From assembly GCA_030448185.1 (NCBI GenBank), contig JAUJNL010000012.1, positions 1-64,000 of the forward strand: 64,000 bases of DNA. Reading direction: 5' to 3'. The DNA is from Cytophagales bacterium (GTDB lineage Bacteria > Bacteroidota > Bacteroidia > Cytophagales > 172606-1). Positions 32,521-59,960 of this stretch are shown in pieces. The notes below the pieces were generated by a model. It worked only from the letters and a program-made list of their open reading frames with translations. It was not told the DNA's origin and ran no database searches. The position numbers were made by a program, and so were the translations under genes. Numbering within the stretch: position 1 is the stretch's first letter; each line of letters starts with the position of its first letter.

Positions 32521-32895
32521 AGTGGATGTGCTGATTAGATCATGTGCTGATGTGCTGATAATCTCTTATGAAGAACTTATTTTATAATTTATTTCGTCGT
32601 GGTGCTTAATTCCAAGTTGTTTGTAAAATGATTCATTTGTAACCTACTTCGGTCGACGGCTCTGCTTACTGGATATTTCTTGCCATTAAGACCCAAATGG
32701 GTGTACAACAAATTGCCGATTGTTCATCCGCATTTATAATGCGGAACAACATGAAGAACCGACTAAATAGGTAATGCTAAACGCTAAAGGTTAAATGAAT
32801 GAAGTTATAAAATAGAATAATCAACAGTTTTACACTTATCCCATTGCGCATTCATCATTAGCACATCAGCACATGATCTAATCAGCACATCCACT
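32521..32895. repeat. Palindrome-bounded intergenic element with 36-bp perfect inverted repeats
   Basis: agtggatgtgctgattagatcatgtgctgatgtgct (32521-32556) is the exact reverse complement of 32860-32895; a second weaker inverted match (tattttataa/ttataaaata) lies inside. Confidence 0.9.
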
Positions 32896-47988: not shown

Positions 47989-48136
47989 GTTCTTTTGAAA
48001 TATTCCTCTTTATTTCGCAGTAAAGAAGAGGATTCCCCTAATATAATATTAGCAGATTCATGGTTCTTTTGAAATATTCCTCTTTATTTCGCAGTAAAGA
48101 AGAGGATTCCCCTAATTTATTATTAGCTGATTAATG
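47989..48136. repeat. Tandem duplication of a 74-bp leader segment containing a hairpin
   Basis: gttcttttgaaatattcctctttatttcgcagtaaagaagaggattcccctaat... at 47989 and 48063; each unit ends in ATG, the second being the symporter start. Confidence 0.95.
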
Positions 48137-59036: not shown

Positions 59037-59960
59037 TTAGTCTTTTTTGGTAATCACCAGGTTCCGGAAATGAGCTTCGGTACCCGAACCAATCCACAAG
59101 CCTACACTGCCTGCGTGAGTTGGGCCGTGCTTTAAGTCGTTGATGATCAAAGTAGGTTGTTCCTGCCCGTGGACGTAGAGTTTGGCTTTATCCTCTTCCA
59201 CTTCAATTTTTACTTTCGTCCATGCGCCTACCGCTAAGTCCACGTAGGATTCGTACTTTTCGGGCGTTTCTTTGCGGCTCTTTTCCCAGGGAAGGTCGGG
59301 ATAGGAAATATACTGCACGGAGTGGTTTCTACGGACTTGGTCCTGGGCTCTGCCATTGGTGGGCCGTAAATAAATGCACTCGAACTTGGAATCATGCCCA
59401 CTAATGCGAAAGGCAATGCCGACAAAACCACGAGCTGATTCTACGGCTGTAGCCGAGGACTTTCCTGCCAGCTCTACTTCGATGATCCCATTGCGGAAAG
59501 TAATATCTTTAAGTTTGGCGTATTTTACTTCCGAGGTAATGCCCTTAGCGGTATCGGCTACCCGTACGGACTGCTTTCCTAATACTACTTTAACACTTTA
59601 GATAGGTGTATGACAAATTGCAGATGTTCATCCCTAATACTACTTTAACACTTTAGATAGGTGTATGACAAATTGCAGATGTTCATCCGCATTTGTAATG
59701 CGGATGGCGGAGTTCAGCATTTTAAATGCTGCTTTAAAGGGTTCCGCATTGCAAATGCGGAACAACCAGACAACCAAAGGTTATACGTATGATCTAAAGT
59801 GTTAAAGTAGTACTAAATAAGATTCAGAAACCACTGTTACATGAACCGGCAGGAGTCCCTCCGTACTTTTTAAGGCGATGGTCTGTTTGCCGTTCTGGCC
59901 TATTGCTTCCTTGCAAAACAGCAGCATTACGGCGAATAATAGTATTGTTCCGATACGCAT
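59037..59960 (-). pseudogene. Secreted DUF1080 (3-keto-disaccharide hydrolase-like) protein, interrupted by a MITE-like element
   Basis: C-part ...GFVGIAFRISGHDSKFECIYLRPTNGRAQDQVRRNHSVQYISYPDLPWEK... to 59037; N-part MRIGTILLFAVMLLFCKEAIGQNGKQTIALKSTEGLLPVHVTVVSESYL from 59960; the frame is continuous when 59583-59816 is removed. Confidence 0.85.
59583..59812. mobile_element. Non-autonomous MITE-like palindromic insertion (~230 bp including a 55-bp tandem duplication)
   Basis: TIRs tactactttaacactttagat / atctaaagtgttaaagtagta (21 bp, perfect) flanked by CTAA at 59579-59582 and 59813-59816; three internal palindromes. Confidence 0.88.

Follow-up and report, generated by a model that had tools for sequence, protein, structure and literature searches.

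The window, by which is meant the whole stretch of 64,000 nucleotides analysed here, very probably contains a 175-bp non-autonomous MITE with IS701-type ends, lodged in a CTAA site of a gene for a secreted protein, its core apparently of foreign, IS5-like derivation, and the 55-bp repeat at its left end most likely an assembly overlap. The evidence for these parts differs in kind: the insertion is seen directly, in the repeats, the target duplication and an ortholog that preserves the site before the event, while the length of the element, the agent that would have moved it and the origin of its interior are deduced from comparison with other copies and other elements.

Insertion, host gene and empty site

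A search of the window locates TACTACTTTAACACTTTAGAT at 59583-59603(+), 59638-59658(+) and 59792-59812(-), all three matches being perfect where 0.01 would be expected by chance, and CTAA stands at 59579-59582, 59634-59637 and 59813-59816. The perfect 21-bp terminal inverted repeats (TIRs) with a flanking CTAA duplication, which an earlier reading made from the sequence alone had proposed, are thus borne out, and the insertion is genuine; its extent had nevertheless been given wrongly as 230 bp, the third copy of the TIR and the tandem left end of 55 bp having been overlooked, and 175 bp is the most likely value. The features are as follows.

59037-59960, minus strand: host gene, secreted-type protein with a weak DUF1080/PF06439 match, split by the MITE and truncated after 52 codons
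59579-59582: left target duplication, CTAA, repeated at 59634-59637 in the duplicated unit
59579-59633, plus strand: extra CTAA and left 51 bp of the element, 55 bp; 100% tandem repeat of period 55, most likely an assembly join artefact
59638-59812: MITE proper, 175 bp (as in copies C106 and C43), non-coding, the duplicated left end being discounted
59638-59658, plus strand: left TIR, IS701-type end TACTACTTTAACACTTTAGAT, a perfect copy of the repeat that also agrees with the IS701 end consensus wherever the latter is fixed
59659-59770: MITE core with three palindromes (59686-59704, 59743-59761 and, between them, AGCATTTTAAATGCT), related, by alignment, to the left end of a second, IS5-like family with duplications of 8 bp
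59792-59812, minus strand: right TIR, perfect inverted copy
59813-59816: right target duplication, CTAA

As had been stated, the element encodes no transposase, since it comprises 175 bp with in-frame stops. In its presence the host frame meets a stop 3 codons past the junction, leaving a protein of 52 aa, and removal of 59583-59816 yields the single continuous frame that had been predicted, of 229 aa. This exact restoration had been taken as strong support for an insertion; the frame does join, but it adds no evidence, as the same is to be expected of any clean insertion flanked by a target duplication, and it is an ortholog free of the element that adds it. The closest ortholog (G006:C180, from a member of the same family) is uninterrupted, its protein being 77% identical, and its DNA aligns without gaps to the joined host gene from base 83 to 690, across the junction at base 147. 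It carries the joined sequence that had been foreseen, and it is a direct empty site. The assignment of the host gene to DUF1080 is less firm, for a match to PF06439 is present in the profile search, but its 20.5 bits fall short of the 26.8 set as the curated cut-off.

The TIR recurs in the genome, as had also been anticipated, with 31 matches at up to 3 mismatches where the reversed control pattern has 1. Apart from fragments at contig ends, 13 full-length MITEs of 175-210 bp were read, which fall by their ends into two subgroups (...TTTAGAT, or ...TTTAATA with ...GTTACGC). The 4-bp duplications, mostly CTAA, TTAA or TTAG and so of YTAR type, are exact in 9/13 full copies and show one mismatch in 3/13; copy C13a is without a matching right duplication. 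The element is, in other words, a dispersed MITE family with copies at unrelated sites, and the 98-99% identity of the window copy to three others (C106, C43, C205) suggests a recent spread. A DNA search of 58 relatives did not find the MITE outside its own genome, and the exact end pattern, sought over 84,980 genomes, gave one match, in a Saprospiraceae MAG, with neither a transposase nor a convincing partner end adjoining.

The 55-bp repeat and the length of the element

The stretches 59579-59633 and 59634-59688 form a 100% identical tandem repeat of 55 bp, through which CTAA and the left end appear twice; the remaining full copies of the same subgroup have a single left end and measure 175-193 bp. 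The termini of contigs C3, C20, C64 and C192 lie inside repeats and agree with other copies over exactly 55 bp, after which the flanks diverge, the terminal matches of C68 and C70 reaching at most 52-54 bp, and the terminus of C192 is the very 55-mer that is duplicated in the window. It was these terminus-to-interior matches that gave the 55-bp limit, pairwise comparison of a sample of 83 contig termini having returned no overlaps. Since contig ends match repeats for exactly 55 bp, the repeat in the window resembles a join in a k=55 assembly graph with its overlap left untrimmed, and this is most likely what it represents. The join of the two flanks is itself correct, because both are part of one gene. 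As the extra 55 bp are most likely an assembly duplication, the true element would most likely be 59638-59812, of 175 bp.

The repeat could instead be a real tandem duplication that arose in vivo, through slippage or one-ended transposition for instance, seeing that it is present in the assembled sequence within a gene context coherent on both sides, and that another tandem left end of the same genome (C3:46900-46939) has a period of 19 bp that k=55 would not explain. Nevertheless, the period is precisely that of the contig-end matches, down to the shared 55-mer of C192, the duplication is missing from the rest of the full copies in this subgroup, and in C56 a right end of about 55 bp, standing alone, resembles a join of this sort; an origin in the cell is accordingly rated as quite improbable. 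The lone right end in question (C56:33158-33213) is itself probably another assembly join, and at the tandem left end in C3 it was noted that the TIR includes TTAG, at which a second element might have inserted. Elsewhere in the window, 47989-48136 hold a two-copy tandem repeat of 74 bp at 94%. The case serves as a warning that duplicated transposon ends may be mimicked in a short-read assembly by overlaps of k-mer length; a literature search for reports of such join artefacts found nothing pertinent.

IS701-type ends and the palindromic core

The IS701 family, of IS4-related DDE elements, is characterized by lengths of 1400-1550 bp, ends of the form ---YACT-Y--YR and repeats of 4 bp (PMC2266710, Table 1 for the ends). 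In the window, TACTACTTTAACAC fits every fixed position of this end consensus, and the CTAA duplication has the 4 bp of the family. For IS701 elements the target consensus is YTAR; a literature text search for YTAR together with IS701 found nothing, and the term is used here as a reading of the sites of this genome.

A full-length insertion sequence with the same TIRs and 4-bp duplications, which the sequence-only reading had proposed to look for, was found in part: the genome holds one of 1558 bp with a TTAG duplication (C108:22136-23693), but its ends, TACTACTTTGACAG/TACTACTTTAACAG, are only nearly the same and its transposase is decayed, with many stops. The best-kept piece of the latter matches NF033540 IS701 (NCBIfam) at 4e-9 and PF13546 (DDE_5, Pfam) at 1e-4, the second value being below the cut-off. 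C143 holds part of another such remnant, its end being of this type too. In another genome of the class (G303) there is an intact insertion sequence of 1516 bp with ends TTCTACTTTGACA and a CTAA duplication, whose transposase reaches 242 bits with the IS701 model, for which the cut-off is 150, and on an Allochromatium tepidum plasmid an annotated IS701 transposase lies between TACTACTTTGTCA repeats with TTAA flanking. An intact IS701 transposase with the ends of the MITE was not found in the present genome, whose assembly is 75% complete. The other IS701/DDE_5-type transposases of the genome were considered as partners, and none has these ends.

Beyond about 19-21 bp there is no evident sequence in common between the MITE and the C108 element, and an origin by internal deletion of the latter is thus unsupported. 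On the other side, the interior has, across 107 bp, some 80% identity with another repeat family, the second of this genome, whose ends are GGGTGTACGACAAAnTGCAGA; three palindromes follow one another in the same order in both, and both have the AACAAC tail and the AGCTTCGCTGAGATAG loop insert. Of this second family the genome shows 120 matches to the end sequence, and its duplications are of 8 bp; 19 copies were inspected, L221 and L229 with identical flanks among them, and in 13 the duplication is exact. Its likely source is an IS5-like relative of 1335 bp (C36:4012-5347, equivalent to L211:513-1848) that has the ends of the family, with TACCGGGT at either side. Its transposase, of DDE_Tnp_4 / IS5 type, is broken, and at its left end this relative carries the palindrome cluster of the MITE, a cluster that the C108 element does not have. 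The MITEs of the second family (for example L048, L052, L053, L212-L229), with GGGTGTACGACAAA ends and a palindromic core, are far commoner than those of the window family; a probable remnant lies in the window itself at 32699-32745 (the end sequence with 2 mismatches and one TCCGCATT...AATGCGGA palindrome), and the AGCTTCGCTGAGATAG insert occurs in the core-palindrome loop in copies of both families (L035-L038, L211). The window MITE does not belong to this family, its breakpoints being at the outer TIRs with 4 bp and not at GGGTGTACGACAAA ends with 8 bp.

From these alignments the core does not look like a shrunken IS701 element, and the MITE is probably a composite, with IS701-type ends on an IS5-like core; the more specific proposal, that such ends took over the core, with its palindromes, from an IS5-like MITE, is put forward tentatively, with somewhat less than an even chance of being right. 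The MITE entered a CTAA (YTAR-type) site in a gene whose product is a small secreted protein; the 4 bp were duplicated and the host protein was cut short. Most likely it was cut and joined by a DDE transposase of the IS701 family, which would have been supplied in trans and have worked on the 21-bp inverted repeats.

The interior could nonetheless have been inherited by internal deletion, a common origin of MITEs, from an IS701 element that itself carried the palindrome cluster and is missing from the assembly, as the incompleteness of the latter would allow. This is unlikely, as it would have to accommodate the identity of the interior to the second family, down to the palindrome order, the tail and the loop insert, and the one IS701-type element of the genome is without the cluster. 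Still another reading would make the outer repeats incidental and would assign the movement of the MITE to the IS5-like transposase that goes with the inner family, whose palindromes, abundant ends and 1335-bp relative are all at hand, or to a REP-type (Y1) single-strand transposase recognizing the palindromes. Against it, the breakpoints and the 4-bp duplications, exact in most full copies, are at the outer repeats, where the empty site also stops, while the inner family duplicates 8 bp at its own ends; and Y1 elements are not known to make target duplications or to carry long TIRs, so that both features of the MITE speak against REP/RAYT-type mobilization. Very little likelihood is left to this reading.

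Place among known elements

What has been documented is a small family of IS701-type MITEs, for which there are a clear empty site, a consensus of the ends and a candidate for the transposase source; the case also illustrates two MITE families, otherwise unrelated, with a common core. If the composite reading is true, elements without genes can swap their ends, and hence change the transposase that mobilizes them.

The window element is a further example of an ordinary kind, an IS701-type MITE, its size now corrected, although few of these seem to have been described, a full-text literature search having returned a single open paper in which IS701 and MITEs are both named in full. With bacterial MITEs in general, such as MITEAba12 (PMC6382973), it shares a short and non-coding sequence, TIRs, a target duplication, several copies and a presumed mobilization in trans, and it differs from them in its IS701-type ends. 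With the IS5-like element and its many short copies it has in common the palindromic core, in the same order, whereas that family has GGGTGTACGACAAA as its TIR, 8-bp duplications and a DDE_Tnp_4 transposase. Finally, with the IS701 insertion sequences it shares the ---YACT-Y--YR ends and the 4-bp target duplication, and the longer elements with its type of end encode NF033540/PF13546 transposases as that family does, while the MITE, in contrast to them, is of 175 bp, has no gene and has an interior unrelated to the IS701 element of its own genome.
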